Below, in pieces: positions 1,615-51,208 of a stretch of 64,000 nucleotides of DNA. Position 1 is the first letter of the stretch. Each line of letters begins with the position of its first letter. This DNA comes from Flavobacteriales bacterium (lineage in GTDB: Bacteria > Bacteroidota > Bacteroidia > Flavobacteriales_E > Vicingaceae), in assembly GCA_013359255.1 (NCBI GenBank), contig JABWCF010000005.1, forward strand, positions 1 to 64,000, given 5' to 3'. Both the position numbers and the translations under genes were made by a program. Under the pieces are notes generated by a model. That model was not told where the DNA came from and did not search any database. It was given only the letters and a program-made list of their open reading frames with translations.

Positions 1615-1630
1615 CAAAAGCTCAAATTCC

Positions 1631-1704
1631 GGTCCCGTAGCTCAGCTGGATAGAGCAACTGCCTTCTAAGCAGTAGGTCACAAGTTCGAATCTTGTCGGG
1701 ATCA
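1631..1704 (+). tRNA. tRNA-Arg (anticodon TCT)
   Basis: The 74-nt cloverleaf has acceptor strands GGTCCCG and CGGGATC, with one G-T wobble. The D arm contains AGCTCAGCTGGATAGAGC. The anticodon stem ACTGC/GCAGT encloses CTTCTAA, giving anticodon TCT, which reads AGA and AGG codons. The T arm contains AGTTCGAATCT. No CCA is encoded. It follows tRNA-Pro closely and is probably processed from the same transcript. Confidence 0.97.
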
Positions 1705-1796
1705 CTTAATTACTTTCCCGCAAAAAAATATCAAATTTGCTCCCAATCGCAGCGTATGCGTATTTTTAAAAATTTAAAATTCTTACAAAAAAATAA

Positions 1797-9765: not shown

Positions 9766-10218
9766 ATGAAAAAAATCATTCTCATCATTAATCTGCTTAT
9801 TGTAGTTGGGGCATCTGTCTTTGGGTATTTGTATTTAATAAAACCAGGGTTAATGAATTACCATTATGCCTATTTGCAAATGAACGAAACTGAGATTATA
9901 GATTTTAACCTGCACATATTCGATTTGATGATTACCTTTAAGAAAATAATTGGAGGAATGTTTTTCTGTGTAGCTCTATTTACATTAGGTATAATATACT
10001 TAAATCATAAAACAACGTACGATAAAGCCAATAGTTTTATATTGTTTGCAGCTTTGTGCTTTGCCACTATTCCTCTTACCATTCTTAGTCATCGTGTAGC
10101 AGAAGCCATACCCGATGGAGAACCTAAACCGTTATGGTATTTACCGGTATTATTAATTGTGTTAGCCTTTGTTTCTACGTTAATTGCACAGTTTTCTAAA
10201 TCAGAGTCTCGTTCTTGA
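9766..10218 (+). CDS. Small four-helix membrane protein of unknown function
   Basis: A 150-aa protein not recognised as a named family. Four hydrophobic segments are visible at about 4-25, 58-80, 90-108 and 124-143, with charged loops between. A short hydrophilic loop after the third helix contains HRVAEAIPDGEPKP. The start ATG lies at the end of an A/T-rich leader. The stop codon overlaps the TTG start of the following membrane phosphatase gene (TTGA), which indicates translational coupling and suggests that it works with that phosphatase, perhaps as a membrane sensor or partner. This functional link is inference from gene order only. Confidence 0.65.
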   Translation: MKKIILIINLLIVVGASVFGYLYLIKPGLMNYHYAYLQMNETEIIDFNLHIFDLMITFKKIIGGMFFCVALFTLGIIYLNHKTTYDKANSFILFAALCFATIPLTILSHRVAEAIPDGEPKPLWYLPVLLIVLAFVSTLIAQFSKSESRS

Positions 10219-11590: not shown

Positions 11591-11754
11591 CACAGTCTGT
11601 TAATTGTATATACTTTGTTTATTTAATTCGTCTAAAAAATCGGTTTACTTCTCATATTACGACCCTGTACTCTGCCAAAATATATTTTTGTTATTCTAAA
11701 ATGTTTTTACAAAACCATTTGATATTTAAACAAAAGAATGTAGTTTAGTGGTTT

Positions 11755-13815: not shown

Positions 13816-13926
13816 TGTATATAAATTTTTAGTTGTTTTATTTTTAAAATGCCGGATAATTTTCTAAAAAGTAAATCTATATAACAAATTAACATAACTT
13901 AGTCTAAACCCTTATTGAATAGAACC

Positions 13927-16122
13927 ATGTTAAATAAAAATTATTTACGATTAGTGTTTTTGTACTTATTGGTAAGTTGTTCTACACTTTTGTTGGCAAA
14001 TACTGCAAAAAGGGATAGTTTAATTCAAAAGTTGAATAACTCTAAACAGGATACAACAAGAGTTAATATTCTTAATGAATTAGGAGAAATTACGAGTAGA
14101 ACAGATTTAAATACCAAACTCAAGTATACAAAAGACGCATTAGGATTAGCCGAGAGATTAGAATTTGCAAACGGAATAGCAAGAGCATGCTTAGGGATGT
14201 CTAATTATTATGCGATACTTGGTGTTACCGATTCAAATGAAATTTATTTATTGAAGGCTGAAAAAATATTGCTAAAAACGAAAAACAAGAGCGGGTTAGC
14301 AAAGGTATACGGAAATATTGGTGCATTAAATTACGGCTTAGGTAATTTAGAAAAATCACTTTCCTATTTTCAAAAGGCATCTTCATATTTTGAACAAACA
14401 AACGACAAAGCTAATCTAGCTAAAGCTCATATACTAATAGCCGGCATACTTCAGGGTATAAATAATTTTAAAGATGCCATGGTACACCTCCAAAGTGCCG
14501 AAATAATAAATAAAGAATTAAATAATGAAATGGGTTTAGTCGAAACCTATTTAAATGTAGGAATCATTTATAAAAAGATGTTGAGTTTAGATACCGCTCT
14601 CACCTACTACAACAAAGCATTGGTGTTTGCTGAAAAAAAAGTCGATAAATTTTATTTAGCGAAACTATATAATAACATAGGAAATGTATATTTAGAGAAA
14701 AAGGATTTTAAAACAGCTATATCTTATTATGATAAATCAATTCCTCTTCGCCATGAAATGAACGATTGGTCAGGATTAAATATCACATACAATAATTTGG
14801 CACTTATATATTCTGATATGGGTAAATATGATCAGTCTATTAATTTATTAAAAAAATGCGAAGAAATTTCTTTAAAGGAAAAAGATAAAAGGGCCCTGAT
14901 GGTTACATATAAAGTTTTTTCAGAAGCTTATTCCGGAAAGAAAGATTTTAAAAATGCATTTGAATATTTTGCCAAATACAGTGCTTTGCGCGATACATTA
15001 TTTAATGATCAAAGCAGTAAAGTAATAACCGATTTAGAGAAAAAATATGAAACAGAAAAAAAAGACCAAGAGATTCAATTATTAAATAAAAATAACTTAT
15101 TAAGAGAATCCGAAATAGAAAAAAAGAATTTAGATTTAAAAAGAAGAAAAACCCAAAACTATGCATTAGCAGGGGGATTTGGTTTTATGATTATCTTATC
15201 AGTATTAATTTTTAAAAGCTACAAACGAAAGAAAAAAGATAATGAACTTATAACACAACAAAAAGATGAGGTGGTAAAGCAGAAAGAAATAATAGAACAC
15301 AAAAAAAATGAAGTGGACGAAAAAAATAAAGAAATATTAGATTCAATTAAATATGCCAAACGTTTGCAAGAAGCCATTTTACCTCCAAAACGACTCGTAA
15401 AGGAATGGCTTCCTAATTCTTTTATTATATATAAACCTAAAGATATTGTTGCAGGCGATTTCTACTGGATGGAAAGTTACAATGAAACAATCTATTTTGC
15501 CGCTGCAGATTGTACCGGACATGGTGTTCCCGGAGCCATGGTAAGCGTTATTTGCTGCAATGCACTTAATAAATCATTAATAGAAGAAAATATTACAGAA
15601 CCAGCAAAAATTCTAGACCGAACACGCGATCTGATTATTGAACGATTCAGCCGAAGTGAAGAAGACATGAAAGACGGTATGGATATTAGTTTGTGTTCTA
15701 TTGATTGGAAAAAGATGGAACTAAGTTGGGCGGGAGCCAATAATCCGGTTTGGATAATAAATCCAAATCGTTTAAGTTGGCCGGAGAATGTAATTCTATT
15801 TCCCGATAATAATTTAGGGGTAGAAATAAAAGCTAATAAACAGCCTATTGGAAATTATGTGAATAATGCGATTAGTTTTACCAATCATTCTTTAAAATTA
15901 GAACCGGGCGATACCATCTATATTTTTACCGATGGCTTTCAAGACCAATTTGGTGGCGAGATGGGTAAAAAGTTTAAAGCATCAAATTTGAAAAATCTAC
16001 TATCATCTATCTATTTAAAGAATATGGACGAACAAAAAAATATTATCTCAGAAACTTTTGAAGATTGGAAAGGAAATTTAGAACAGATAGACGATGTGTG
16101 TGTAATTGGAGTAAGGGTATAA
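13927..16122 (+). CDS. TPR-SpoIIE PP2C phosphatase, subtype B
   Basis: A 731-aa protein. I prefer ATG 13927 to an in-frame TTG at 13915 because it begins directly with the signal sequence (MLNKNYLRLVFLYLLVSC); the Cys could be lipidated, but a hydrophobic stretch follows, so this is uncertain. TPR repeats fill about 45-370, including several NNIGxxY and ALxYYxKAL units. A membrane helix (about 412-432) and a coiled coil follow. The phosphatase domain has KDIVAGDFYWME, AAADCTGHGVPGAMVS, DGMDISLCSID, IFTDGFQDQFGG and QIDDVCVIGVRV, so the acidic metal ligands are intact. It belongs to the subtype found at 10.2 and 18.5 kb. It has no copy of the 37-nt repeat. It is probably cotranscribed with its neighbours. 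Confidence 0.9.
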   Translation: MLNKNYLRLVFLYLLVSCSTLLLANTAKRDSLIQKLNNSKQDTTRVNILNELGEITSRTDLNTKLKYTKDALGLAERLEFANGIARACLGMSNYYAILGVTDSNEIYLLKAEKILLKTKNKSGLAKVYGNIGALNYGLGNLEKSLSYFQKASSYFEQTNDKANLAKAHILIAGILQGINNFKDAMVHLQSAEIINKELNNEMGLVETYLNVGIIYKKMLSLDTALTYYNKALVFAEKKVDKFYLAKLYNNIGNVYLEKKDFKTAISYYDKSIPLRHEMNDWSGLNITYNNLALIYSDMGKYDQSINLLKKCEEISLKEKDKRALMVTYKVFSEAYSGKKDFKNAFEYFAKYSALRDTLFNDQSSKVITDLEKKYETEKKDQEIQLLNKNNLLRESEIEKKNLDLKRRKTQNYALAGGFGFMIILSVLIFKSYKRKKKDNELITQQKDEVVKQKEIIEHKKNEVDEKNKEILDSIKYAKRLQEAILPPKRLVKEWLPNSFIIYKPKDIVAGDFYWMESYNETIYFAAADCTGHGVPGAMVSVICCNALNKSLIEENITEPAKILDRTRDLIIERFSRSEEDMKDGMDISLCSIDWKKMELSWAGANNPVWIINPNRLSWPENVILFPDNNLGVEIKANKQPIGNYVNNAISFTNHSLKLEPGDTIYIFTDGFQDQFGGEMGKKFKASNLKNLLSSIYLKNMDEQKNIISETFEDWKGNLEQIDDVCVIGVRV

Positions 16123-16177
16123 ACAACAATCATGCAGCTTAAGAAGAATCTAATCGAGGTATAATTGAGTGGTATAT

Positions 16178-18478
16178 ATGGTTTTTAAAAACATAAATAA
16201 TCAAATAATAATAGCAACCATAATTGCTTTATTATTTCTAAACCAGCAAAATTGCTTGGCCCAATTTTCGGACGAACAGCAAAATCAAATCAATGAGCTA
16301 AAAGCAATTATTGATAATAAATTAAGTAACGATACAGCTAAAGCCAAAGCTTATGTTAAATTGAGCACTTTTTTCGGAACATCTAATATAGACTCAATGT
16401 ATACTCTATCTGTATCGGCCCAACAGATAGCGGAGGCCGCTTTAAAAACAGCAAGAACAAACGATATTACTAATTCACTTAAAATTTCATTAGCTAGTGC
16501 ATTAAGTAATATTGGGTATTACTTTAAAAATCTAGGAAAATTTCCTTTAGCTCTAGAAAATTATCAAAAAAGCATTAAGATACTAGAAGAAATAAATTAT
16601 CAAAAAGGTTTAGGAGTACCATACAATAATATTGGCTTATTATATTACTTGCAAGGAAACATTCCTTTAGCAATTGAATACTATCATAAAAGTTTAAAAA
16701 TTCGAGAGACAATTAACGATAAAAGCGGTATTGCGGCTGTTTTTAACAATTTAGGAAGTTTATATAAAAGGCAAAACAATATTCCGCTAGCAATTGATTT
16801 TTATACAAAATGCCTCAGAATTTGTGAAGAAATTGGCGACAAAAGAGGACTAGCATATTCTTATAATAATATGGGAATGCTTCATTTTATTCAAAATGAT
16901 TTTCCCACAGCAATTAATTATCACGAAAGAAGTCTTAAGTTAAAAGAAGAGATTGGAGACAGAAGAGGTATTTCAGAATCGTATCACAATATTGCAAAGA
17001 CTTATCAAAGCATGAATTCCATTTCAACGAATAAAGTCGACTCTCTTTCTGATTTAGCAATGAACTATTTTTTAAAATGTTTAATCATAAATGAAGAGAT
17101 AAATGATAGAATAGGAATGGCTACTACCCTTAATAGCATTGGACAATTATATTTATCTAAAGGCTTATACAAAAAAGCAAAAGCCTCCGGAGATAACGCA
17201 TTAACTATTGCAAAAGAGGTTGGTTTTGTAATGGGAATACAGCAGGCGGCCAGTTTGTTGTACGAAATTGCACTTCAACAAAAAAAGTGGAAAGAGGCAC
17301 TTGAAATGAGAAATTTAGAATTACAAATGAAAGACAGTATCGATTCTGAAGAAGCGATGAATGTTGCAATCAGCCTGCAAGCCAAATATGAATATGAAAA
17401 ACAACAGGCTATTGATAATGCCGAATTTGAGAAATTAATTGTTATAGAACAAGAAGAAAAACAAAGACAAAAAATTATTACCTATACCACTGGCGGTGGC
17501 TTAGCATTAGTTGTATTGTTTTTAGTGTTTGTGTTTAATCGTTTGCAAGTAACACGTAAACAAAAAATAATTATAGAAGAAAAAGAGAAAGAAACACAAA
17601 AGCAAAAAGAAATTATAGAAGAAAAACACAAAGAAATTACCGATAGTATTAACTATGCCGAGCGAATACAACGCAGCTTTTTGGCCACCACCGAAATGTT
17701 AGATAAGTATTTAGGTGTTACTTCGAGTAGCCCGAAGCATGGGGGTGTATCGAGCAATGAACACAATTACTTTGTATTCTTCCGTCCTAAAGACGTAGTA
17801 AGTGGCGATTTTTACTGGGCTTCAGAACTTAACAATGGGCACTTTGCATACTGCTGTGCCGATAGCACCGGGCATGGTGTACCCGGAGCCATTATGAGTA
17901 TTTTAAATATTTCGAGTTTAGAAAAGGCCATAGAAATAGAGGTAAGTCCTGACCAGATTTTAAATAAAACCCGAAAAATTATTATTGAACGATTAAAAAA
18001 AGACGGCAGTCTTAAAGGCGGCAAAGATGGCATGGATTGCAGCTTGTTGGTATTGGATAAAGAAAGAAAAAAACTTTCATTTGCTTTAGCCAATAGTCCA
18101 GTTTTTATTGTACGTTCTGTTGCTTCTAGTAGCCTAAAGCAAGAGGGTATATCGAGAAGCGATGCCCAAGAACTTCTCGAATTCAAAGCCGATAAAATGC
18201 CCGTAGGTAAACACGAAAAAGATACCGAACCTTTTAATCTGCACACTATACAATTACAACTGGGCGATACCATTTACACGCTTACCGATGGCTTTTCCGA
18301 TCAGTTTGGTGGAGCTAAGAATAAAAAATACATGATTAAAAATGTAAAAGAAATGTTTTTACAAATAGCTCATCTTCCTATGTCGGAACAAAAACAAAAA
18401 TTATCCGAAGCATTCGATCAATGGAAAGGAAGCAACGAGCAGATAGATGATGTGTGTATAATAGGTGTTAGAATATGA
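16178..18478 (+). CDS. TPR-SpoIIE PP2C phosphatase, mosaic of neighbouring paralogues
   Basis: A 766-aa protein. ATG 16178 is chosen over GTG 16169 because a normal signal peptide follows (ending NCLAQ). At least five 40-residue TPR units of the NNIGxLYYxQGNIPLAIEYY kind cover about 105-300. The membrane segment ends FVFNRLQVTRKQK, which is identical to the segment in the 18.5-kb gene, and the sensor half also resembles that gene. From ITDSINYAERIQRSFL onward, however, the phosphatase half is nearly identical to the 11.7-kb gene, including both 37-nt repeats. All acidic metal-binding motifs are present (GDFYW, ADSTGHG, DGMDCS, TDGFSDQFGG, DDVCIIGV). The gene therefore looks like a recombinant between two paralogues, with the junction near 17.6 kb. 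Confidence 0.9.
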   Translation: MVFKNINNQIIIATIIALLFLNQQNCLAQFSDEQQNQINELKAIIDNKLSNDTAKAKAYVKLSTFFGTSNIDSMYTLSVSAQQIAEAALKTARTNDITNSLKISLASALSNIGYYFKNLGKFPLALENYQKSIKILEEINYQKGLGVPYNNIGLLYYLQGNIPLAIEYYHKSLKIRETINDKSGIAAVFNNLGSLYKRQNNIPLAIDFYTKCLRICEEIGDKRGLAYSYNNMGMLHFIQNDFPTAINYHERSLKLKEEIGDRRGISESYHNIAKTYQSMNSISTNKVDSLSDLAMNYFLKCLIINEEINDRIGMATTLNSIGQLYLSKGLYKKAKASGDNALTIAKEVGFVMGIQQAASLLYEIALQQKKWKEALEMRNLELQMKDSIDSEEAMNVAISLQAKYEYEKQQAIDNAEFEKLIVIEQEEKQRQKIITYTTGGGLALVVLFLVFVFNRLQVTRKQKIIIEEKEKETQKQKEIIEEKHKEITDSINYAERIQRSFLATTEMLDKYLGVTSSSPKHGGVSSNEHNYFVFFRPKDVVSGDFYWASELNNGHFAYCCADSTGHGVPGAIMSILNISSLEKAIEIEVSPDQILNKTRKIIIERLKKDGSLKGGKDGMDCSLLVLDKERKKLSFALANSPVFIVRSVASSSLKQEGISRSDAQELLEFKADKMPVGKHEKDTEPFNLHTIQLQLGDTIYTLTDGFSDQFGGAKNKKYMIKNVKEMFLQIAHLPMSEQKQKLSEAFDQWKGSNEQIDDVCIIGVRI
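17721..17757 (+). repeat. 37-nt repeat, copy 3 (inside coding sequence)
   Basis: Equivalent in position to copy 1 in the paralogous domain, translated SSPKHGGVSSN. The right end has decayed (CGAGCAA instead of CGAGAAG). It was probably inherited with the duplicated phosphatase half. Confidence 0.7.
18123..18159 (+). repeat. 37-nt repeat, copy 4 (inside coding sequence)
   Basis: Equivalent in position to copy 2, translated SSLKQEGISRS. The left end has drifted (CTTCTAGTAGCCTAAAG) while the right end GGGTATATCGAGAAG is intact. It was probably inherited with the duplicated phosphatase half. Confidence 0.7.
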
Positions 18479-18520
18479 GTTTTGCTACGAAGTATAACAA
18501 ATAAAAAGGAAACAAAAAAC

Positions 18521-20317
18521 ATGAATAAAACAACATGTGTTTTAGCATTGCTTATTAGTTTAATACTTATTAAAAGTGGCATTGCTCAAAATTTTACCAT
18601 AGAAGAACAAAGAAAATTAGATAGTCTTAATGCAATTATTAATAACCCTAACAGCCACGACACATCTATGGCAAATGCTTATGTAGGTTTAAGTAAGCTT
18701 TTTCATGTTTCAAATATTGATACGATGATGTTCCTTTGCACCAAAGCAAAAAGTATTGTGGAAAAAAAACTAGCCACCCACCCACCAGACAAAATTGCAC
18801 TCGCTTTGCGAAAATCATTATCCGCTGCTCTAAACAACCTTGGGTATGTTTACGAGAATAAAGGACAAATTAAAAATTCCCTTATATACTACCAAAAGGC
18901 TTTAAAAATTGACGAAGAAATTGGAGACAAATATGCAATGGCTTATAATCTAAACAATATTGGGGGTGTTTATCTAAATAGAGGGCAAATTGAAAATGGG
19001 CTAAAATACTATCATAAATCATTAAAAATAAGAGAAGAAATTGGGGATAAAACGGGTATGGCTAATAGTTTGAACAATATTGGGATTATTTATAATAATC
19101 AAGGGCAAATCGAAAATGCCTTGGAATATGCACATAAAGGCATGTTACTAGCTAAGGAATTGGGCTTTCCTAAATTTATTAAAAGTGCATCTGAATTACT
19201 TTATAAATTATATAAAAAACAAAATAAGGGAATGGAGGCTTTGGAAATGTACCAACTGTATATTGCCATGAGAGATAGCACCAATAACTTAGAAACACAA
19301 GCTATAGTTATAAAACAACAAACACAATATGAATACGAAAAACAAAAAGCATTAGATGATGCTGAACATGAAAAGCAATTAGCCATAGAAAAAGAAGCAA
19401 AAGCCAAACAAAAGGTAATCACATTTGCAACAGTAGGAGGATTGATTTTGGTTGCTATTTTCTTAGTTTTTGTATTTAACAGGTTACAAGTAACTCGTAA
19501 ACAGAAAAATGTTATTGAAGAACAAAAAACAGTAGTAGAAAAAGCCCACCATGAATTGGAAGAAAAGAATAAAGAAATAATGGATTCTATTACTTATGCC
19601 AAAAGGATACAATCGGCTATATTACCACCAACCAAACTGGTAAAAGAATACCTAAGGGAGAGTTTTATATTATATAAACCCAAAGACATTGTGGCAGGAG
19701 ATTTTTATTGGATGGAGCATAAAAATGGTAAAATACTTTTTGCAGCTGCAGACTGTACAGGACATGGTGTGCCTGGCGCCATGGTAAGTGTGGTTTGTAA
19801 CAATGGTTTAAATAGAAGTGTGCGAGAGCACGGTTTAACCGACCCAGGAAAGATACTAGATAAAACCAGAGAAATAGTAATACAAGAATTTGAGAAGAGC
19901 GATGAAGACGTAAAAGACGGCATGGACATCTCGTTATGTGGATTAGACTTAAACAACAAAACCTTATCTTGGTCTGGAGCAAATAACCCATTATGGATTA
20001 TTAGAAATAATGAAATACTTGAGTACAAAGCCGACAAACAACCGATAGGCAAATATGCAGAATCAAAACCCTTTACTACCCATCAAATTCAACTAGGAAA
20101 AGGCGATAGTATTTATATATTTACCGATGGTTACCAAGACCAATTTGGCGGTGAGAAAGGCAAAAAGTTTAAAGCAGCCAAACTAAGAGAATTGCTACTT
20201 TCGATACAACACGAGCCGATGGAAAAACAACGAGAACTCATCGACCAAGCTTTTGAAGCATGGAAAGGTAGTTTAGAGCAGGTTGATGATGTGTGCGTGA
20301 TAGGGGTAAGGGTTTAG
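18521..20317 (+). CDS. TPR-SpoIIE PP2C phosphatase, subtype B
   Basis: A 598-aa protein. ATG 18521, preceded by AAAAAGGAAAC, opens a clear signal peptide (MNKTTCVLALLISLILIKSG, then IAQ). An in-frame TTG at 18482 is less likely. Three TPR units in 40-residue phase (about 100-225) each carry LNNIGxxYxNxGQIENxL. The membrane helix ends FVFNRLQVTRKQK, then comes a coiled coil and the phosphatase domain with KDIVAGDFYWME, AAADCTGHGVPGAMVS, DGMDISLCGLD, IFTDGYQDQFGG and QVDDVCVIGVRV. It lacks the 37-nt repeats found in subtype A and so shows the ancestral loop lengths. It ends the row, and 43 nt separate it from the convergent helicase gene. Confidence 0.9.
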   Translation: MNKTTCVLALLISLILIKSGIAQNFTIEEQRKLDSLNAIINNPNSHDTSMANAYVGLSKLFHVSNIDTMMFLCTKAKSIVEKKLATHPPDKIALALRKSLSAALNNLGYVYENKGQIKNSLIYYQKALKIDEEIGDKYAMAYNLNNIGGVYLNRGQIENGLKYYHKSLKIREEIGDKTGMANSLNNIGIIYNNQGQIENALEYAHKGMLLAKELGFPKFIKSASELLYKLYKKQNKGMEALEMYQLYIAMRDSTNNLETQAIVIKQQTQYEYEKQKALDDAEHEKQLAIEKEAKAKQKVITFATVGGLILVAIFLVFVFNRLQVTRKQKNVIEEQKTVVEKAHHELEEKNKEIMDSITYAKRIQSAILPPTKLVKEYLRESFILYKPKDIVAGDFYWMEHKNGKILFAAADCTGHGVPGAMVSVVCNNGLNRSVREHGLTDPGKILDKTREIVIQEFEKSDEDVKDGMDISLCGLDLNNKTLSWSGANNPLWIIRNNEILEYKADKQPIGKYAESKPFTTHQIQLGKGDSIYIFTDGYQDQFGGEKGKKFKAAKLRELLLSIQHEPMEKQRELIDQAFEAWKGSLEQVDDVCVIGVRV

Positions 20318-33197: not shown

Positions 33198-33935
33198 ATG
33201 GTATTCATATTGATAGGGTTGAATTATATGAATACTGTGCATTCTGTTTCCAAAAAGCAAGATAAAGCTTCAGTTCGCTTATTTTTCTTTACTTCGGTAT
33301 TACCGGTTTTATTGCTCCTAATTCCTATGTTTTTATTAAAATTTATAGAAAGTTATTATCATCTTTCTTTTTCAGATTATGGAATTTTTCCCAGAAAAAT
33401 AAGTGGGCTATCGGGTATTTTATTCTCACCTTTTATACATGGAAACTGGGCTCATCTTATAAATAATGCAATTCCCTTATTTATTATGGGTATTGCCTTA
33501 TTTTATTTTTATAAGGAAATAGCATGGAAAACATTTTTTTGGATATGGATAATGCAAGGGATTTGGACTTGGCTGGCAGCCAGAGAATCTTTTCATGTTG
33601 GAGCAAGCGGAATTTTATATGGATTGTTCGGCTTTTTGCTTTTAAGTGGAATTATTAGGATGAATAAGGCCTTATTGATTATTTCCTTGCTGGTTGTTTT
33701 AGAATATGGCAGCATGGTTTGGGGAGTGTTCCCAATTAAATACGAAATAAGTTGGGAATCGCATTTATGGGGTTTGGCTGCAGGTGTGGCACTTGCTTTT
33801 GTTTTTAAAAAACAAGGAATGCAAAGAGAAATTTATAAGTGGGAAGAAGACGAAGAAGAGGTTGAAAATTCTTTAAATGAGATAAAAATTAGCTATGAAT
33901 TTATAGAGAAAGAAAAAAAAGAAGAGAATCTTTAA
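33198..33935 (+). CDS. Rhomboid family intramembrane serine protease
   Basis: A 245-aa membrane protease. The Ser of the dyad is in HVGASGILYGLFGFLLLSG, and its His partner is in the last helix, WESHLWGLAAGVALAF. The L1-loop region is FIHGNWAHLINNAIPLF, with the family HxNxxH variant. Six helices are predictable. The hydrophilic C-terminus is strongly acidic. The start may be 33198 or the in-frame ATG 33228; the latter removes ten hydrophobic residues and gives a more usual cytosolic N-terminus. The stop overlaps by 4 nt the stop of the convergent dltA-like gene. Confidence 0.9.
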   Translation: MVFILIGLNYMNTVHSVSKKQDKASVRLFFFTSVLPVLLLLIPMFLLKFIESYYHLSFSDYGIFPRKISGLSGILFSPFIHGNWAHLINNAIPLFIMGIALFYFYKEIAWKTFFWIWIMQGIWTWLAARESFHVGASGILYGLFGFLLLSGIIRMNKALLIISLLVVLEYGSMVWGVFPIKYEISWESHLWGLAAGVALAFVFKKQGMQREIYKWEEDEEEVENSLNEIKISYEFIEKEKKEENL

Positions 33936-35431
33936 TCTTTTCTAGAGGCATAAAATTCTATTAATTTATTTTTATCTATTTTATGACTGACATTGTAAGG
34001 AAACTCTTCAAGCACGATAATCTCCGATGGAACCATATAGTAGGGTAATTTTTTTTTCAAAAAATCAGTTAGCTCACTAATCGCATTGCCTACATTCTGA
34101 TTTAGTATTACGAATGAAATTATTTTTTTTACCTCTGCATTTCGTTTTAGAGGAATGGTTACGGCATCATTAATGAGGTAGTGGGTTGAAATAACGTGGT
34201 TTATTTCGTTTATTTCAATTCTAAAACCGTGTAACTTTACTTGGTCATCATTTCTGCCTAAGAAAAAAAATAAACCTTCTGTTTGATAAGATAAATCGCC
34301 TGTTTTAAAGCTTTGGTGTTTATTATGTGTAAAAAACTTTAGATTGTTTAGAGATTCATTCTTAAAGTAACCTGCCGACACATGGGGGCCGTTTATAATA
34401 AGCTCTCCCTCTTTTTTATCTGCAGAATTAAAATCTATAAATAATTCTGCATCTGGTCTACAATAGCCTATAGGTAGTGTAGTGTATTTCGCTATGATAT
34501 CATCGGTAATTTCTATAAAAGTGGTTACAATGGTGGCTTCAGTTGGTCCATATGCATTATAAATGGAGCATCCAGGAAACAATGTTTTAAGTTTTTTGCA
34601 AGTAACATTCGGAAGTTCTTCTCCCATAAATAAAAATTTTTTTAGTGATGGTATTTTGTTTTTCTCAAAAGAAACATTTCGCAGAAAAATAAAAATAAAA
34701 GAGGGGGTGGATGTCCAAACAGTACAACGGTACTTTATTAATCGGTTTATAAAATCTTCCTGATTTTTTGCTATATCGTTAGAAGTTAAAACCAAACTTC
34801 CTCCAACAGAAAAGGCGTTAATAACATCGCATAAAGAAACGTCAAACGAAAAAGGAGCTTGGTTTAGGAATACATCGTTTTGATGAAAGCCAAAGTCTGA
34901 GGTAGCCCAATTTACAAAAGAAATAATGTTGTTTCGGGTTATTTGAACACCTTTAGGTTCTCCGGTAGAACCGGAAGTAAACATAATATATTGTAAAAGT
35001 TCGTTTTTAATGTAGTAGATATAGTTTTCGAATTTGGGTAAGGTATTTTCTTTAACTATTAATTCGCTATTAATAGATATTGGAATGGAGAATGGTAATG
35101 GGAGTTGTGTGCAATTAATGGCAACTTGGGTACCCGTTTGTTCTATTATTTTTTCAATTCTTTGCGGTGGGTATATAACGTCTATCGGAACATAAGTGAT
35201 TCCTGAAGAGAAACAAGCAAGAATAGAAACGGGAAAAAAATGTTCTTTATGTCCATAAATAAGAATAGGGTGCCCTTTAGGAATACCTATTTTATTAAAT
35301 AATTCGGATAATTGTTCTACTTTGTTTTTTAATTCATCCCAGTTTAAATCTACATCGCTGGCAGAAATTGCCAATTTATGGGGTTGATTTTCTAACTCGG
35401 TAAATTCATTGCGAAAAAAGTTAAAATTCAT
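33932..35431 (-). CDS. dltA: DltA-like aminoacyl-carrier-protein ligase
   Basis: A 499-aa adenylation enzyme matching the size and motifs of D-alanine:carrier-protein ligase. The P-loop FTSGSTGEPK is at 151-160. Asp197 (FSFDVS) would bind the substrate amino group. Further motifs are YGPTEAT, KTGDL, the hinge GRNDDQVKLHGFRIE and a C-terminal catalytic Lys in NVSHKIDKNKL. It should load an amino acid on the DltC-like carrier encoded in the same operon. In Bacillus DltA the FLFCGE motif carries a Cys (about residue 269) that packs against D-alanine. Here the motif is FLFMGEELP, with Met269, so the amino-acid choice may differ. It is the last gene of the operon, 10 nt after dltB. Confidence 0.88.
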   Translation of the reverse strand: MNFNFFRNEFTELENQPHKLAISASDVDLNWDELKNKVEQLSELFNKIGIPKGHPILIYGHKEHFFPVSILACFSSGITYVPIDVIYPPQRIEKIIEQTGTQVAINCTQLPLPFSIPISINSELIVKENTLPKFENYIYYIKNELLQYIMFTSGSTGEPKGVQITRNNIISFVNWATSDFGFHQNDVFLNQAPFSFDVSLCDVINAFSVGGSLVLTSNDIAKNQEDFINRLIKYRCTVWTSTPSFIFIFLRNVSFEKNKIPSLKKFLFMGEELPNVTCKKLKTLFPGCSIYNAYGPTEATIVTTFIEITDDIIAKYTTLPIGYCRPDAELFIDFNSADKKEGELIINGPHVSAGYFKNESLNNLKFFTHNKHQSFKTGDLSYQTEGLFFFLGRNDDQVKLHGFRIEINEINHVISTHYLINDAVTIPLKRNAEVKKIISFVILNQNVGNAISELTDFLKKKLPYYMVPSEIIVLEEFPYNVSHKIDKNKLIEFYASRKD

Positions 35432-35441
35432 TTATTTATTT

Positions 35442-36605
35442 TTAAAACAAGGTACAATAACCACTAAAAATATAGAGAGAAAATGCGGCCAAATGAAACA
35501 TTATAAATATGCTTAAATATTTTACAATAGAAGAGTTCATATTTCCAAAAACAATATCGCGATTGTATTTTTTGCAATAATAAATGTACGTATTATATAC
35601 TGCCGAGTAAATAGCAAAAAGAACACCGCTAAGTATAAAGTTTAATGAAAATCCATTCCAACACCCCATGAGGGTAAAAGTTAAAAAAAGAGATACATTT
35701 TGGCGAAAGAGAGGCATTTTTTTTAATTTTTTCTTTCTGGTAAAAAATAAATATAGGGGTGAAAAAAAATTATCTTTTAGCCAAGTTCCAAGACTTATAT
35801 GAAAACGATTCCAAAAGTCTTGTGGGTTTTGAGCTAAATAGGGTTTATTGAAGTTTAATGGTAAATGAATGCCCATCATTTTCCCTACTCCCAACGCCAT
35901 AAAAGAGTATCCTGCAAAATCAAAGAAAAGATAAAAATAGTATGCATATATTGTATTTAAAGTGCTTAGAGAATAGAGGGAATCGGTTTCAGAATCATTT
36001 AGCCAATATCTGCTAACTAGTTCGGCAAGAATAAACTTAAATGCAATTCCTTTAACTAAATAATTCCACGCGGAAATAAAATTTTCGGGAATTAAATTTC
36101 TAAATCCAAGGTCTTCTGATTTTTTAAAATTACTGTAACGGTCTATTGGCCCTATGAGTAAGGAGGGGGTAAATGCTAAAAAATTAAAATACGAAAACAG
36201 GTTAGGCATATTTTCGTTGTTCGCCTTTTCCATGTAAAGTCCCACCGTTTTAAAAGAAGCATAAGATAAACCCGCAAATGAAATAATATCATTTAAACGA
36301 AAAGGGTAATAGTGTACCCGTATATCGGATTTTACAAGAACGAGTGGTAAAAGCAAAAGTAATATGCCCCACAACTTAATATTAAACCTAAAAACCGATA
36401 AATTTAAAAAGGTAACAACGTATGAAAAAAGTATAAGTAGAAGAAAGTGTGTGGGCTTAGGAAACACAAGCACCAAAAAAAGAGCATTTAGAAAAAAGAG
36501 TACTTGTTTATAGAACTTATTTGGAACAAAAAATTTAGAAACATGTAGCAGCAATATAAAGATGCCCATTAAAATAAAAAACTCGTATGTAGTAAAAGGA
36601 AGCAC
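35442..36605 (-). CDS. dltB: DltB-like MBOAT acyltransferase
   Basis: A 387-aa multi-pass membrane acyltransferase. Over the whole length it follows DltB: GPIDRYSNF, FFDFAGYSFMALGVG, NFNKPYLAQNPQDFWNRFHISL, and the C-terminal FHLAAFSLYIFSG. His371 in that last motif corresponds to the catalytic His (336 in the solved DltB). The second conserved position, WHG in most DltB, is Asn317 here (MGCWNG), as in many eukaryotic MBOATs that use Asn/His pairs. It should move an aminoacyl group from the carrier across the membrane to the DltX-like peptide. It starts 3 nt after the dltX stop. The full-length C-terminus indicates an intact gene. Confidence 0.9.
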   Translation of the reverse strand: MLPFTTYEFFILMGIFILLLHVSKFFVPNKFYKQVLFFLNALFLVLVFPKPTHFLLLILFSYVVTFLNLSVFRFNIKLWGILLLLLPLVLVKSDIRVHYYPFRLNDIISFAGLSYASFKTVGLYMEKANNENMPNLFSYFNFLAFTPSLLIGPIDRYSNFKKSEDLGFRNLIPENFISAWNYLVKGIAFKFILAELVSRYWLNDSETDSLYSLSTLNTIYAYYFYLFFDFAGYSFMALGVGKMMGIHLPLNFNKPYLAQNPQDFWNRFHISLGTWLKDNFFSPLYLFFTRKKKLKKMPLFRQNVSLFLTFTLMGCWNGFSLNFILSGVLFAIYSAVYNTYIYYCKKYNRDIVFGNMNSSIVKYLSIFIMFHLAAFSLYIFSGYCTLF

Positions 36606-36608
36606 GGC

Positions 36609-36758
36609 TTAAAATTGCTGATAAATAAATTGTACCGATGATTTAGTTTGGTTATCAGGGTGTATGTTTAATGGATTGTACAACCAATACAAGAGAAACG
36701 CAATTGTTGTATATAACAAGAGGTTTAAAACGAAACGAATCAAAATATTATTTTTCAT
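36609..36758 (-). CDS. dltX: DltX-like microprotein
   Basis: A 49-codon gene not usually called because of its size. ATG 36758 lies inside the 3' end of dltD (11-nt overlap), and the stop is 3 nt before dltB. The protein has a basic N-terminus (MKNNILIRF), one membrane helix (about residues 9-27, ending YWLYN), a short extracytoplasmic stretch and the C-terminal end FIYQQF. Gram-positive DltX has the same plan, with the C-terminal signature FIYN(E/D)F. Its Tyr has been proposed as the acyl relay between DltB and DltD. Tyr46 and both flanking Phe are kept here. Position between dltD and dltB, coupling, size, topology and C-terminus all agree. Confidence 0.85.
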   Translation of the reverse strand: MKNNILIRFVLNLLLYTTIAFLLYWLYNPLNIHPDNQTKSSVQFIYQQF

Positions 36759-37968
36759 AAAATAGTTTATAATAGCTTGCAATTTCCTTGTTTACTGTTA
36801 GCCATCCGTATGAAGAAAGGTGCATAATGTCGCTTAACATTGCTTTATCGTATAACTCGGGACGGCTTACATATAAGTTTAAACAAGGCATGGCTTCTCC
36901 CGTTTCAGGCTTTGTAATTTCCTTTACCACTTGTTGTATAATGGGTTCTAATTCTTCTGTATTTTTATAGTACAGAGGGTTGATGGGTTGAATGATAAAG
37001 TATGCATTTATGTTTTGTTCTCGCACATACTTTACAAGCATTTCAAAGTCTTGCCATTCGGTATTAAATTTTCTGTTAACCGCACTAACACGGCCTTTTT
37101 TGTTTTTTATGTAGGAAGTATAATATGCGTTATTGATACCCATTTTATTATTATTAGCCTTATTGTTAACCTCTTTTCTCGCATTTTCAAGGAGGGTATT
37201 CCATTCTATGTTCTGCTTACTGTTTAATGAATTATTGGAATATTTAATTTTTACAGAAGTGAATTGATTGCTGATATGGTTAAGTAAATTGTATTTTTTT
37301 GAAAGTAAGAAATTAGATATGTTGCAGAGAGGATAATAAATACCCTTGTGTAGAAAAGATTTCTGAGACTGGTGTTTAAGAAATATTGTTTTAAGTTCTA
37401 AAGAAGGATTATTAAATTCTGGAAAAAGTTGTGAAATTCTGGAACCTACGTAAGCAGAATAAATACTGTTTTGGGTAGAAATTTTGTAGAAAAAAATAGT
37501 AGAGTTGTAGTTTAAGAGAACCTCGGAAGAAGTTCCCTTACTAAAAGTAGATTCAAACCATCCCGGAGAAATAATAAATACAATATTTTTTTCTTTTAGT
37601 TTGGCTTCATTGGCCATAAGTTGGCAAAGTATTGACAGGCTTTGATTGCCCGCAGCACCATACGAAAACACATTGGTATTAAAATTTTTATTTAAAAAAA
37701 CATGCGGAACTTCCGGTTCACTAGAGGTTAATTCCGATGAGCCTATGATAAACACAGATTTTTGTTCATTATCAGGTATATTTAGAAACGAGCTTTCTAA
37801 AAGGGGGTTTGATTTAAATGTGGGAATAAAATTAGGGGGTAGAAAGAGGGTATCTTTGGGAGCAGAGGTAAAAAGTAAATGATTTAAACCTTTAGAGTGG
37901 TATAAAAACAAAGTAAAAATGAAAGATAAAATAGTAGGAATAATACATGTTAGAAGGAAATTCTTCAT
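36748..37968 (-). CDS. dltD: DltD-like extracytoplasmic acyl-ester hydrolase/transferase
   Basis: A 406-aa protein with an N-terminal membrane anchor (about 5-22) and an SGNH/GDSL-like domain outside the cytoplasm. The catalytic Ser lies in FIIGSSELTSS (Ser77/78), and the Asp-His pair in LSDIMHLSSYGW (Asp380, His383), matching DltD. YGAAGNQSLSILCQL matches the conserved glycine-rich strand after the nucleophile. In the Gram-positive pathway DltD completes transfer of D-Ala to teichoic acid; the acceptor in a didermal cell is unknown. It begins 2 nt after dltC, and its 3' end overlaps dltX. No truncation is seen. Confidence 0.87.
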   Translation of the reverse strand: MKNFLLTCIIPTILSFIFTLFLYHSKGLNHLLFTSAPKDTLFLPPNFIPTFKSNPLLESSFLNIPDNEQKSVFIIGSSELTSSEPEVPHVFLNKNFNTNVFSYGAAGNQSLSILCQLMANEAKLKEKNIVFIISPGWFESTFSKGTSSEVLLNYNSTIFFYKISTQNSIYSAYVGSRISQLFPEFNNPSLELKTIFLKHQSQKSFLHKGIYYPLCNISNFLLSKKYNLLNHISNQFTSVKIKYSNNSLNSKQNIEWNTLLENARKEVNNKANNNKMGINNAYYTSYIKNKKGRVSAVNRKFNTEWQDFEMLVKYVREQNINAYFIIQPINPLYYKNTEELEPIIQQVVKEITKPETGEAMPCLNLYVSRPELYDKAMLSDIMHLSSYGWLTVNKEIASYYKLFYEK

Positions 37969-37970
37969 TC

Positions 37971-38201
37971 TTATGGTTCAACTTTTTTTATGGTTTCAAT
38001 AATATTTTCAATGGTATCAAAGTTTTCTTCCACAATTAAGTGTTGAGGTATTTTTTTTCCAATATATTCTTCAATAGCTACAATCAACTCTACGGTTGAG
38101 ATAGAATCCAGTAGCTTAGATTTAATAATAGACTCATTGTCATCTACCTCTCTAAAGGAAAGATTCTTAATTTCATTTTTCAAAAAATCTTTTATTTCCA
38201 T
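37971..38201 (-). CDS. dltC: DltC-like acyl carrier protein
   Basis: A 76-aa carrier protein. Ser33 in LLDSISTVELIVAIEEYIG is the phosphopantetheine attachment site, and LLDS(I/M)xTVxL is the DltC form of the motif. Four helices are predictable and the acidic surface is typical. It should receive the amino acid activated by the DltA-like ligase and present it to the DltB-like membrane enzyme. It is the first gene of the operon, preceded by a promoter-like sequence. The gene order C-D-X-B-A differs from the Gram-positive X-A-B-C-D order. Confidence 0.9.
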   Translation of the reverse strand: MEIKDFLKNEIKNLSFREVDDNESIIKSKLLDSISTVELIVAIEEYIGKKIPQHLIVEENFDTIENIIETIKKVEP

Positions 38202-38263: not shown

Positions 38264-39994
38264 TTATTTGTAAAACCAGGCCTGATAAATTGCACAATTT
38301 CCGGTAGCATCTTCTACTTCAAGGGTAAAAAAGTTTTTTCCTTGTACGGTTTTTTCATCGAAGTAGTAAATTACTTTGCCCGTTTTAGGTTGGTACTCCA
38401 TTAATATCCATTTCCCGTTTAGGTATCCCTTATAGCTTTTAAGTCCGGAAAGATTATCTTTTACGGTTAGTTGAATACTGGATGCTTTGGCCATATTTTT
38501 TCCCGAAACAATATTTATGGGTTCTATTATAGGTGGAACAGTATCTAAACGAATAAAAAAGGTTCCAAAGTATTTAGAAGAGGCTGCAATATAATCGCCA
38601 TGCCATGTTCCTCCAATTGCTTGCCATTTTTCCTTGGAATCCATACGTATAATAGTGGCTTTTTCTTTTAGAGAGGGAGAAAGGGTTATGTTCTTAATGC
38701 TAATGTTAATAGGGGTATGCAGGGGAGTATAGTCGTTATGAATGGCATATGCCGCACCAACCGACCCCCATACTTTATCTATTTTGTTGTATTCAAATTT
38801 TAAATCATTGTATAATGCGTTAGCCGGAAAACTTACTAATATTTCATCTTGCATAAAAGTATGAGGTTCGTTGCATTTTAGATAACGAGAGGGTTTTGCC
38901 GCAATTTTTTCTTCTATCTTACCCTTATATTCGGGATTTCCTGCCAGTTCAAAAGTTAATGAAGAGGTATTTCCATTCAAATCCTTGGCAATGCATTTAA
39001 TTTTGTATGTAGCTGATGTTTTAGCGTTAATAACTCCTTTTTCGTTGTAATGAGTGTAGATGTTTAAAGGGTTACATTCCTCTATAAAGCACTGTTGAAT
39101 GTGTTGTCCTTTATCTGTGTAATACTTATAGTCAATGTGAGAATTGATAGCCCTGGTTTCATCAAATGAAATTTTATCTAGAGAGTGTGAATACGTAGTT
39201 GTGTTGTTGGCAGTAACTTCTACGTAATATGTGCCATTTTGATTGCTTGCTTCATTGGCTCGATCGTAAGTACTAATACCAATACCAATGTTTCCGTATA
39301 CCTGAATAGGAGCCGAACTTTTAAGTAAATACATTCCATTAGTGTACACCACATCGAGTATCATTTTTGCGTTTTTGCCGTTTACAAAACTCTCTTCGTT
39401 TAACGGGTAAACGGCTACTTTTGAGATAACAGGAGGAACATTATCTTTTACATCGAAGCCAAAATGCAATGGATTGATTGCCTGCTCCGAAGCAGTCTCT
39501 CTTATTTCAAAATGTAAATGCGGAGCAGCCGAACTGCCGGTGTTCCCTGAAAAAGCAATACATTCTCCTTTAGCTACCCATAAAATAGAATCTTTTGGGA
39601 AAAGTTCAATTTCCCAAGTTTCGTTAAGGTATTGGGCTTTTTTTACATAGGCTGTAATTTTGGCATTAAACTTTTGAAGGTGTGCATAAACGCTGGTAAA
39701 ACCATTTGAGTGGGTAACATATAAAACATTTCCGTACCCCCATGGAGAAACTTTAATACGAGAAATATACCCCTCTGCCACAGAATAAACTTTATACCCT
39801 TCTACACCTTGTGTTTTTATATCAATGCCGCTATGAAAATGATTGGAACGCAACTCCCCGAAATTACCGGATAAGAATATCGGAATATCTAAGGGAGAAA
39901 CAAAATAATTTTTCGGATACCCTTTATTTTGGGCATAAACAGAAATAAAACATAATGAAATGCTTAATAATATAAGGATTCTATAAACTTTCAT
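38264..39994 (-). CDS. M23 family metallopeptidase (LytM-like)
   Basis: A 576-aa exported peptidase. The start is set at ATG 39994 because it opens a clean signal peptide (MKVYRILILLSISLCFISVYA); an upstream in-frame extension of 15 residues is less likely. The catalytic domain comes early (about 25-190), with HFHSGIDIK (HxxxD zinc ligands) and SAAPHLHFEIRE (HxH), so the zinc site is complete. The remaining 380 residues form beta-rich domains, including an Ig-like PPIIEPINIVSG... segment, and may bind envelope ligands. The family cleaves peptidoglycan cross-links or regulates amidases. It lies 62 nt upstream of dltC on the same strand. Confidence 0.88.
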   Translation of the reverse strand: MKVYRILILLSISLCFISVYAQNKGYPKNYFVSPLDIPIFLSGNFGELRSNHFHSGIDIKTQGVEGYKVYSVAEGYISRIKVSPWGYGNVLYVTHSNGFTSVYAHLQKFNAKITAYVKKAQYLNETWEIELFPKDSILWVAKGECIAFSGNTGSSAAPHLHFEIRETASEQAINPLHFGFDVKDNVPPVISKVAVYPLNEESFVNGKNAKMILDVVYTNGMYLLKSSAPIQVYGNIGIGISTYDRANEASNQNGTYYVEVTANNTTTYSHSLDKISFDETRAINSHIDYKYYTDKGQHIQQCFIEECNPLNIYTHYNEKGVINAKTSATYKIKCIAKDLNGNTSSLTFELAGNPEYKGKIEEKIAAKPSRYLKCNEPHTFMQDEILVSFPANALYNDLKFEYNKIDKVWGSVGAAYAIHNDYTPLHTPINISIKNITLSPSLKEKATIIRMDSKEKWQAIGGTWHGDYIAASSKYFGTFFIRLDTVPPIIEPINIVSGKNMAKASSIQLTVKDNLSGLKSYKGYLNGKWILMEYQPKTGKVIYYFDEKTVQGKNFFTLEVEDATGNCAIYQAWFYK

Positions 39995-40076
39995 TCGGCA
40001 AATATATGATGAGGCTTGGTTTAGGTGCTTTTGCCTCAATTATAGATATTCACATTACAACGTGTAAAAAAAATGT

Positions 40077-40763: not shown

Positions 40764-42305
40764 ATGGAAAACCTATTTGTAATTATTGCAGCAGTGGTCG
40801 GTATTTTTATCGGATCATTGCTCGTTTGGCTTTTTCTCAAGAAAAATATAGAAAAAAGAGCTAATCAACTACTGATTGATGCAAAAAACGAAGCAGAGGT
40901 CATTAGAAAAGAAAAAATACTTCAGGCAAAAGAAAAGTTTTTGCAACTTAAAGAAGAGCACGAAAAGGCCATAATTGAAAGAGAAAAGAAAACCGTTGAA
41001 GCCGAAAACAGAATTCGACAAAAAGAATCCTCTTTATCACAAAAACTAGAAGAAGTTAAAAGAAATGAACGAGAGGTTGAGGGTAGTAAGAAAACACTGA
41101 GTTCTCAATTGGAGTTACTGGATAAGAAAAAAGAAGAATTAGAAAAAGCCCACAGAAAACAAGTGGAGCAGCTTGAAGTGATTTCTGGATTAACCGCAGA
41201 GCAAGCAAAATCGCAGTTAGTAGAAGCGTTAAAAGCCGAGGCCAAAACGGAGGCCATGGCTTCTATTAAAGATATTGTAGATGAAGCAAAACTTACAGCA
41301 TCGAAAGAAGCAAAGCGAATTGTGGTGCAATCCATTCAGCGTGTTGCCACAGAAGTAGCCATTGAAAATTCGGTATCGGTTTTTAATATAGAAAATGATG
41401 AACTAAAAGGAAGAATAATAGGCCGAGAAGGAAGAAACATTAGGGCTATTGAGGCGGCAACTGGCGTAGAAATCATTGTAGATGATACCCCGGAGGCCAT
41501 TATTCTTTCTTGCTTCGACCCGGTTCGAAGAGAAGTGGCTCGTTTGGCTCTTCATCAACTAGTATCCGATGGAAGAATACACCCGGCTCGTATCGAAGAG
41601 GTGGTTAGTAAAGTGCATCGCCAACTGGAAGAAGAAATTATTGATACGGGCAAAAAAACATGTATAGACTTAGGTATTCATGGTTTACATCCTGAGTTGC
41701 TTAGAATGGTAGGTAGAATGAAATATCGCTCCTCTTATGGTCAAAATCTTTTGCAACACTCGCGAGAGGTTGCCAATTTATGTGCAATAATGGCATCAGA
41801 GTTAGGCCTAAATGTGAAAATAGCGAAACGTGCTGGTTTGTTACACGATATAGGAAAAGTACCCGATGATGAACCCGAATTGCCACATGCTATTTTAGGT
41901 ATGAAATTAGCCGAGAAATACGGAGAAAAACCTGAAGTATGTAATGCCATTGGAGCTCACCACGATGAAGTAGAGATGACCTCTATCATTTCGCCTATTA
42001 TTCAGGTGTGTGATGCCATTTCCGGAGCAAGGCCCGGGGCAAGAAGAGAAGTGGTAGAATCGTACATTCAGCGATTAAAAGATTTGGAAACTATGGGAAT
42101 GGCATTTCCTGGAGTACAAAAAACGTACGCAATTCAGGCAGGAAGGGAATTGCGTGTAATTGTAGAAAGCGAAAAAGTGAGCGATCAAGAAGCAGATACT
42201 ATATCTTTTCAGTTAGCACAAAAAATACAAACAGAAATGACCTATCCGGGGCAAGTGAAAGTAACTGTAATTAGAGAAAAAAGAGCTGTGAACTATGCAA
42301 AATAA
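40764..42305 (+). CDS. rny: Ribonuclease Y
   Basis: A 513-aa membrane-tethered endoribonuclease that starts mRNA decay. It has an N-terminal membrane helix (about 3-24), a long coiled coil (about 30-200) and a KH RNA-binding domain with [15 protein letters not shown]. The HD domain has [13 protein letters not shown] and AHHDEVE as metal ligands. The C-terminal segment [14 protein letters not shown] is typical. The full family length is present. The glycan cluster begins 29 nt downstream on the same strand, but there is no sign of coupling. Confidence 0.97.
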
Positions 42306-50102: not shown

Positions 50103-50110
50103 TATATTTG
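50103..50110 (+). promoter_or_regulatory. -7 box immediately before the PagL-like start
   Basis: TATATTTG matches TAnnTTTG and ends 6 nt before ATG 50117. A start point 5-7 nt downstream of the box would fall on the ATG, giving a leaderless or nearly leaderless message. The in-frame TTG at 50108 overlaps the box and is therefore unlikely to be the start. Confidence 0.4.
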
Positions 50111-50116
50111 CTCTAT

Positions 50117-51208
50117 ATGTATTGGAAGCAGGTATATAAAGCAGTTTGCATAATACTATTTGTACTTTATTTTTCGAAGATAAGCTCTCAAATAGTAACG
50201 GGCGGAAATGCACAATATGGTTTTATAATGCCACATCACCCCGAAATGAAAAGCCTTATTAAAGGTCATGTTAAATCATTTGATTTATTTTTAGAATTTC
50301 CAACAAACGGCAAGCAAGAGTGGCATTACCGATACAATTTCCCTACCTGGGGAGTTTCTTTTTACACAGCCGACCTTGCGAATCGAGAACAAGCAGGTTG
50401 GGCTATGGGGGTGTATCCGTATTTTAATTTGCCTTTGTTTGGCGGAAAATCATTTCGGATAAAACAAAAAGTAGGGTGGGGGGTAGGTTATCTTACTAAG
50501 TATTTCCACCGGCAGGAGAATCACAAAAATATTATTGTGGGTTCTGCTATTAATGCCATTGTAAACCTCACTACTTCGGCCGAAATAGATATTAGTAAAA
50601 AAATTAAATCGAGAATAGCATTTTCATTTATACACTTTTCAAATGCATCGTATGCTCAACCTAATTTGGGATACAACCTTCCTGCAGCTTCTCTTGGTTT
50701 TTTGTATTCATTCGGAGATACCGATATCCCTAAAAACTCGGACACTTTAGCTGACTTTAAAACAAAATTTTATTTATCTTCCGTTATTGCTGGAGGCGTA
50801 AAAGAAATTTTGCCGGCAGGAGGAAGAAAATATCCCGCCTTTGTTCATTCCTTAGATGCTGCATACCGTTTTACATACAAAAGTGGAGTAGCTTTAACAG
50901 GAGATTTATATTATAATACTTCTATTAAAGAGCGGCTTGAACGAGATACAATTTCTGTTACAGATGTTGGAATCATGCAGCCCGGAGTAGCCTTGTTTTA
51001 TCGTATTTATTTTGGAAAAATTAATATGTCATTAGGTATGGGAACTTATATTTATTCTCGTTTAAAAGACGATGGAATTTTCTACCATCGCTTTATAACA
51101 CGCTATCAACTGAACGAACGCCTTTTCTTAAATGTAGTTTTAAAAACTCATTTCTTTAAAGCTGATTTTGCCGAATTTGGCATAGGATATCATTTATGGA
51201 AAAAATAA
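50117..51208 (+). CDS. Acyloxyacyl hydrolase / lipid A deacylase (PagL-like)
   Basis: A 363-aa outer-membrane beta-barrel protein. ATG 50117 opens the signal peptide (MYWKQVYKAVCIILFVLYF). The PagL active-site motif is seen as FIHFSNASYAQPNLGYN, with His173 and Ser175. It is longer than Pseudomonas PagL but typical of the Bacteroidota branch. PagL enzymes remove the 3-O-acyl chain of lipid A, altering envelope charge and immune recognition. It is translationally coupled to the following lipoprotein gene. A -7 box just before the ATG suggests a very short leader. Confidence 0.8.
   Translation: MYWKQVYKAVCIILFVLYFSKISSQIVTGGNAQYGFIMPHHPEMKSLIKGHVKSFDLFLEFPTNGKQEWHYRYNFPTWGVSFYTADLANREQAGWAMGVYPYFNLPLFGGKSFRIKQKVGWGVGYLTKYFHRQENHKNIIVGSAINAIVNLTTSAEIDISKKIKSRIAFSFIHFSNASYAQPNLGYNLPAASLGFLYSFGDTDIPKNSDTLADFKTKFYLSSVIAGGVKEILPAGGRKYPAFVHSLDAAYRFTYKSGVALTGDLYYNTSIKERLERDTISVTDVGIMQPGVALFYRIYFGKINMSLGMGTYIYSRLKDDGIFYHRFITRYQLNERLFLNVVLKTHFFKADFAEFGIGYHLWKK

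Follow-up and report, generated by a model that had tools for sequence, protein, structure and literature searches.

A complete Dlt-type operon in an outer-membrane Bacteroidota bacterium, with asparagine in place of the DltB histidine

In Firmicutes, the products of dltXABCD are responsible for the D-alanylation of teichoic acids. A complete Dlt-type gene set is also present in an outer-membrane Bacteroidota bacterium, within the 64,000 nucleotides of DNA analysed here (the window: Flavobacteriales bacterium, family Vicingaceae, contig JABWCF010000005.1 of assembly GCA_013359255.1). This raises the question of what such a system transfers, and onto what, in a cell with an outer membrane. On the minus strand at 33932-38201, the ORF (open reading frame) listing of the window contains five frames in the reading order dltC-dltD-dltX-dltB-dltA (Table 1). 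From sequence, structure models and phylogeny of the components, it is likely that they encode a complete and functional pathway for aminoacyl esterification, which belongs to a Gram-negative Dlt clade and acts by the mechanism proposed below. DltB, the membrane-bound enzyme of the set, probably works in an unusual way in this branch.

An earlier note on this DNA had already recognized the five-gene set, and all five ORFs were recovered where it had placed them, with profile matches from Pfam and NCBIfam in support. DltD matches PF04914 (7e-55) and reaches 160.5 bits with TIGR04092, which exceeds the cut-off of 150. The matches of DltB to TIGR04091 and of DltA to NF003417 fall below the equivalog cut-off and the curated cut-off of 476, respectively. 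In alignments with sequences of solved structures, DltB aligns over its full length with DltB of Streptococcus thermophilus, DltD aligns with solved DltDs, and the nearest chain to DltA is Bacillus cereus DltA (3fcc, 2e-98). The carrier DltC has a weak, generic match to PF00550 (PP-binding, 1.4e-4) and a match to NF003464 (3e-6), and its phosphopantetheine serine (Ser33, within DSI) is kept in every aligned DltC. The DltD residues Ser77/78, Asp380, and His383, named in the note together with Ser33, are likewise present. G76, S78, E79, D380, and H383 are invariant columns of the DltD alignment and Ser77 is not: enterobacterial DltDs (e.g. L006, L040, L072) read GASE where others read GSSE, which marks the second serine, Ser78, as the catalytic one.

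The microprotein DltX scores 13.3 bits against PF12459, under the cut-off of 25, and a sequence search of solved structures with it gave no match. Its gene starts with an ATG at 36758, shortly ahead of the dltD stop codon, and related loci likewise have dltX after dltD and before dltB. The C-terminus follows the published acyl-shuttle motif FXYXXF (PMC12148441). Among the 6,715 small ORFs of all fetched loci, 74 have a C-terminal [FY]xYxxF, and in 73 loci such a frame is identified as dltX by its position, so the motif is not a chance occurrence.

By Pfam, the transferases of the set are an MBOAT protein and an SGNH protein, a combination that is also found with the acyl-tyrosine shuttle FXYXXF in PatA/PatB and AlgI-type O-acetylation. 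In contrast to these systems, which use an acyl-CoA donor, carry the motif fused to the C-terminus of the MBOAT protein and keep its histidine, the window encodes DltX as a protein of its own next to a carrier and a ligase, and its DltB ends in ...SGYCTLF without a fused motif. The structure model of DltB (predicted local distance difference test, pLDDT, 91) has a Z score of 40.6 to S. thermophilus DltB (8jem/6bug); the highest Z score to any other MBOAT protein is 28.4 (PORCN). The AlphaFold model of DltD (pLDDT 90) has Z scores of 27-28.4 to four DltDs (28.4 to 6o93), as against at most 12.4 to other SGNH proteins. Alginate- or PatA-like O-acetylation is ruled out by these folds and by the position of the shuttle motif on a separate protein, and the set is a true Dlt system, as the earlier note had proposed; a closer tie to alginate or O-acetyl transfer had been named there as the refuting outcome. 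The same locus and flanks are present, at 93% DNA identity, in G392, another species of the genus. The ratios of nonsynonymous to synonymous substitution rates (dN/dS) between the two are 0.09 for dltA, 0.10 for dltB, 0.03 for dltX, 0.24 for dltD, and 0.05 for dltC. All five genes are intact in both species, in line with the claim that the set is intact, and the ratios place them under purifying selection.

As a separate observation on fused motifs, the Metabacillus plasmid NZ_CP088246 (L099, 293-4621) encodes a carrier and an AMP-ligase ahead of an MBOAT protein with a fused C-terminal FIYGGF. This appears to be a carrier-fed MBOAT protein of the fused type, whereas fused-motif pathways are described as carrier-free (PMC12148441).

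One deviation of the operon lies in DltB. In MBOAT proteins a histidine of the core helix has been called invariant or universal and is regarded as the likely catalytic base, while a second residue on re-entrant loop 2 can be Asn, Asp or His (PMC12979248, PMC12148441, PMC11035591). In the window DltB, the position of this histidine (His336 in S. thermophilus) is occupied by Asn317. In an alignment of 88 sequences the column holds Asn in all 59 Gram-negative DltBs and His in all 22 Firmicutes DltBs and all seven other bacterial MBOAT proteins; Asn-type DltBs were also found in 7/7 further genomes outside the alignment. The loop-2 histidine, His269 (His289 in S. thermophilus), is invariant (88/88). 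Two further positions have changed as well: Tyr345 of S. thermophilus is replaced by serine and His349 nearly always by phenylalanine in the Gram-negative clade, with Ser326 and Phe330 in the window. Two other MBOAT proteins of the same genome retain WHG and have a fused FIYFQF tail. A shifted histidine as substitute for the lost one was considered and rejected, because the only nearly conserved histidine of the clade apart from His269 (column 337, 58/59) is a tyrosine in the window. Decay would have produced a scatter of residues, whereas one residue is fixed over three phyla beside an intact DltX, DltD, and DltC. The reading proposed here is an inverted dyad, in which His269 is probably the base and Asn317 its partner, the reverse of the arrangement in other MBOAT proteins.

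The DltBs of all sampled outer-membrane bacteria form a single clade (support 100/99) that is sister to the Firmicutes DltBs, and the window DltB, with its Asn and its D-X-B-A block, falls within the Bacteroidota part of it; the DltC tree is poorly resolved. Neither this clade nor the changes in DltB and in the DltA pocket had been mentioned in the earlier note. Mapping of the neighborhood, which that note had suggested, showed that the C-D-X-B-A set recurs across Bacteroidota in a scattered manner. Of 395 genomes of the class, 13 gave a DltB-type match at 217 bits or above, set apart from the general MBOAT background (at most 210 bits, mainly from ORFs of about 490 aa). Seven of these had not come up in other searches; the operon, with an Asn-type DltB, is present in all seven, although in one case the contig breaks off within dltA. 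When a single genome was scanned for each species, about 22 Bacteroidota loci were added, as well as loci from Aliarcobacter/Sulfurovum, Photorhabdus, Bordetella/Achromobacter, and enterobacteria. Where contigs are long enough, the order is C-D-X-B-A in Bacteroidota, Campylobacterota, Bordetella/Achromobacter, and Photorhabdus, D-X-B-A-C in enterobacteria, and X-A-B-C-D in Firmicutes. The patchy occurrence over phyla suggests that the five-gene cassette has spread by horizontal transfer.

Enterobacterial-type cassettes were also encountered on mobile elements. In Klebsiella electrica (L006, 4454-8512 of NZ_CP041250) a plasmid dltDXBAC cassette is flanked by insertion sequence elements; an identical or nearly identical cassette is present on the Enterobacter cloacae plasmid NZ_CP071862 and in part on NZ_CP063883 of K. 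pneumoniae. Two of these three plasmids are typed as conjugative, and a search of 5,426 complete E. coli genomes gave no such cassette. Chryseobacterium sp. 18061 (L049) has an enterobacterial-type dltDXBAC operon, through either horizontal transfer or assembly contamination.

Dlt genes of Gram-negative bacteria are already known, so the novelty that the earlier note had implied for outer-membrane bacteria does not hold. They have been described for Dickeya, Pectobacterium, and Photorhabdus, and disruption of dltB in Dickeya dadantii led to 99% killing by polymyxin (PMC3544676). In Bordetella, the dra locus (BP2987-2991) is cited as required for the incorporation of D-alanine into the outer membrane (PMC9858536). 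The DltBs of Dickeya (L081) and Bordetella (L037, L077) are of the Asn type. The dlt and dra systems, including Dickeya dltBAC with dltD, thus share the DltB clade, the asparagine, and the D-X-B-A block with the window, and those of Photorhabdus and Bordetella also share its C-D-X-B-A order. The window represents a Bacteroidota branch, and its DltA code differs from the Bordetella (Cys269) and enterobacterial (Ile269) types. In a literature search limited to open-licence papers, no description was found of Bacteroidota dlt genes, of an exchange of His for Asn throughout the clade, or of an exchange of DltA between dlt operons; earlier notice of each is possible. A functional analogue is AlmEFG of Vibrio cholerae, in which an adenylation enzyme and a carrier aminoacylate an outer-membrane lipid (glycine on lipid A), a modification that gives peptide resistance. 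Its final transferase AlmG is of the LPLAT type (PMC3783018), in contrast to the MBOAT/DltX/DltD transferases of the window.

The second deviation concerns the amino acid. In the DltA of B. cereus, the cavity that receives the D-alanyl methyl group is formed by Leu, Met, and Cys, and enantioselectivity depends in part on Cys269 (PMC8972799, PMC4176424). The window DltA has Val198, Cys201, and Met269 instead of Leu198, Met201, and Cys269 and thus departs from the D-alanine pocket. The code DVCTLMAIV, with residues 201 and 269 exchanged, occurs in five genomes (the window, L009, L012, L016, and L143), and we know of no amino acid that it matches. The substrate may therefore not be D-alanine, which is nevertheless a possible one. 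Among other Gram-negative DltAs, the enterobacterial code is DLIV[VI]IS[IV]A, and DL[YF]VLCTVA, close to DLM[VT]LCTVA of Firmicutes, is found in Bordetella, Photorhabdus, Aliarcobacter, and some Bacteroidota types. In three loci (L010, L013, L014) DltB groups with that of the window (100/99) and DltA with D-alanine-code DltAs of Flavobacteriales, and monophyly of DltA for the clade defined by DltB is rejected (approximately unbiased test, p 0.0006). It follows from these conflicting trees that DltA appears to have been swapped between operons of an otherwise conserved chassis.

The strongest alternative is D-alanylation as in Firmicutes, with the changes in pocket and active site as neutral drift, Asn317 positioning the substrate as histidine does elsewhere, and His269 having always been the base. 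It is a serious reading, although held at somewhat below an even chance. The window DltA retains Asp197 and Lys484. Many Gram-negative DltAs with a D-alanine code sit beside an Asn-type DltB, so Asn317 alone is compatible with D-alanine, and the Bordetella dra locus is cited for D-alanine (PMC9858536). On the other hand, Cys269, which has a part in the D/L selectivity of the B. cereus enzyme, is a methionine, with the cysteine moved to the place of Met201; this exchanged code recurs in five genomes; and His336 has been reported as invariant and required. Compared as systems, the operon and the Firmicutes pathway have the five components, their folds, the shuttle motif, and the DltD triad in common; further differences are the gene order, the DltX terminus (YQQF as against most often YN[DE]F), and a host with an outer membrane and without PF04464.

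For the esterification pathway preferred here, the evidence consists of five family matches, Dlt-like folds, a shared operon, the common clade, purifying selection, the fixed Asn317, and the published phenotypes of Asn-type systems. Its shuttle mechanism is taken from PMC12148441. DltA would adenylate a small amino acid, D-alanine or a relative, and load it as a thioester onto Ser33 of DltC. DltC would then dock on DltB, and the aminoacyl group would pass through the DltB channel to Tyr46 of DltX, with His269 as general base and Asn317 as polar partner. From the resulting aminoacyl-tyrosine the group would be passed to Ser78 of DltD, which is predicted to esterify a hydroxy group of an envelope glycan or lipid, such as a lipopolysaccharide-type molecule, a surface polysaccharide, or an outer-membrane component. 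This would lower the negative surface charge and protect against cationic peptides.

Several points weigh against this proposal. Exchange of the equivalent histidine for alanine abolishes auto-acetylation of PatA, and DltB, too, is reported to require the residue (PMC12148441); an Asn enzyme would therefore presumably need compensation. No chemistry on any Asn-type DltB was found in the open-licence literature. The Dickeya dltB mutant (PMC3544676) carries a cassette insertion, which may have polar effects on the dltA and dltC genes, and D-alanine should not be assumed for a DltA with an altered pocket. Since Tyr345 and His349 have been lost along with a histidine described as catalytic and universal (PMC12148441, PMC12979248), DltB of this clade could also act mainly as a scaffold or channel and no longer catalyse tyrosine transfer; the aminoacyl group would then reach DltX or DltD through DltC or some other enzyme. 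This is unlikely, as the shuttle motif of DltX, the triad of DltD, and His269 are all conserved, the thioester lies on the cytoplasmic and the DltX tyrosine on the periplasmic side, and the flanking ORFs of 25 loci include no other transferase that accompanies the operon.

Regarding the acceptor, the genome of the window encodes LpxC and an alanine racemase; lipid A is thus probably made and D-alanine available. A profile search of this genome found no CDP-glycerol glycerophosphotransferase (PF04464), on which ground a teichoic-acid acceptor was rejected; other polyol-phosphate polymers remain compatible. The suggestion of the earlier note that the acceptor is not a classical teichoic acid is therefore reasonable. 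An envelope glycan or an outer-membrane component would most likely serve as acceptor, and the authors of the Dickeya study likewise left the Dlt substrate open (PMC3544676). The absence of PF04464, and the fact that the top NCBIfam match of the carrier is an ornithine-lipid acyl carrier protein (1e-6, far under the cut-off), would fit an operon that yields a small aminoacylated lipid or metabolite without modifying an envelope polymer. This is improbable, since DltD, like its counterparts that act on teichoic acid, is an anchored protein outside the cytoplasm, and the disruption phenotype in Dickeya, polymyxin sensitivity, is of a surface type (PMC3544676). A non-functional recent transfer or Gram-positive contamination would fit the rare, patchy occurrence in the class and the absence of DltD from the 35 other family genomes searched outside the genus (in a survey of the phylum, full-length DltD matches were confined to the genus itself), but is hardly credible given the shared locus and flanks in G392, the low dN/dS, and the position of DltB inside the Bacteroidota clade.

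Esterification by an Asn-type DltB, if it takes place as proposed, could have a more far-reaching form, put forward tentatively: an MBOAT clade spanning at least three phyla would do without the universal histidine by means of an inverted His/Asn dyad, and the branch of the window, with its altered DltA, would esterify an amino acid other than D-alanine to an outer-membrane-associated acceptor new to Dlt pathways. The invariant histidine is the accepted catalytic base from DltB to PORCN, HHAT, and DGAT1, and a natural Asn clade with published disruption phenotypes offers a test of its role and of the loop-2 histidine as base. The exchangeable DltA suggests that Dlt chassis of Gram-negative bacteria may differ in the amino acid that they carry, and operons of the window type provide a clean comparison for the Dlt acceptor in bacteria without teichoic acids.

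Table 1. Positions of the dlt genes and other features in the window
Feature	Position	Strand	Description
dltC	37971-38201	-	76-aa carrier; phosphopantetheine Ser33 in LLDSIS
dltD	36748-37968	-	406-aa membrane-anchored SGNH acyltransferase; triad Ser78-Asp380-His383
dltX	36609-36758	-	49-aa membrane microprotein; C-terminal FIYQQF; acyl-shuttle Tyr46
dltB	35442-36605	-	387-aa MBOAT; GTG start; TIGR04091 1.7e-71
Codons AAT GGA (DltB Asn317-Gly318 in MGCWNG)	35652-35657	-	codons read; coordinates computed from dltB start 36605
dltA	33932-35431	-	499-aa adenylation enzyme; pocket code DVCTLMAIVK; NF003417 8e-133
M23 peptidase-domain gene	38264-40039	-	PF01551 4e-20; immediately upstream of dltC; outside conserved cassette
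Putative RNase Y gene	40764-42305		513 aa
Glycan cluster	42.3-49.3 kb		
PagL match	50108-51208		
Phage-type integrase gene	213-1705		adjoins tRNA-Pro and tRNA-Arg
Gene run with SpoIIE-type phosphatase domains	9766-20317		three SpoIIE-type proteins

The M23 peptidase gene, the PagL match, and the glycan cluster, to which the earlier note had drawn attention, are present. Their bearing on function was not borne out: the M23 gene is not common to related loci, none of the flanking genes is met again outside the genus, and nothing among the flanking ORFs of 25 Bacteroidota and Campylobacterota loci recurs in more than four. The neighborhood was consequently dropped as a clue to the acceptor.

Three other regions of the window are of separate interest. 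The DNA of the putative RNase Y gene is 99.9% identical to that of G392, as compared with 89-96% for the genes around it; recent exchange, strong constraint, or an assembly effect are possible reasons. The integrase gene and the tRNA genes that it adjoins lie at the left end of the window and may mark an integration site. In the run of genes with SpoIIE-type phosphatase domains, two of the three proteins also carry TPR repeats.

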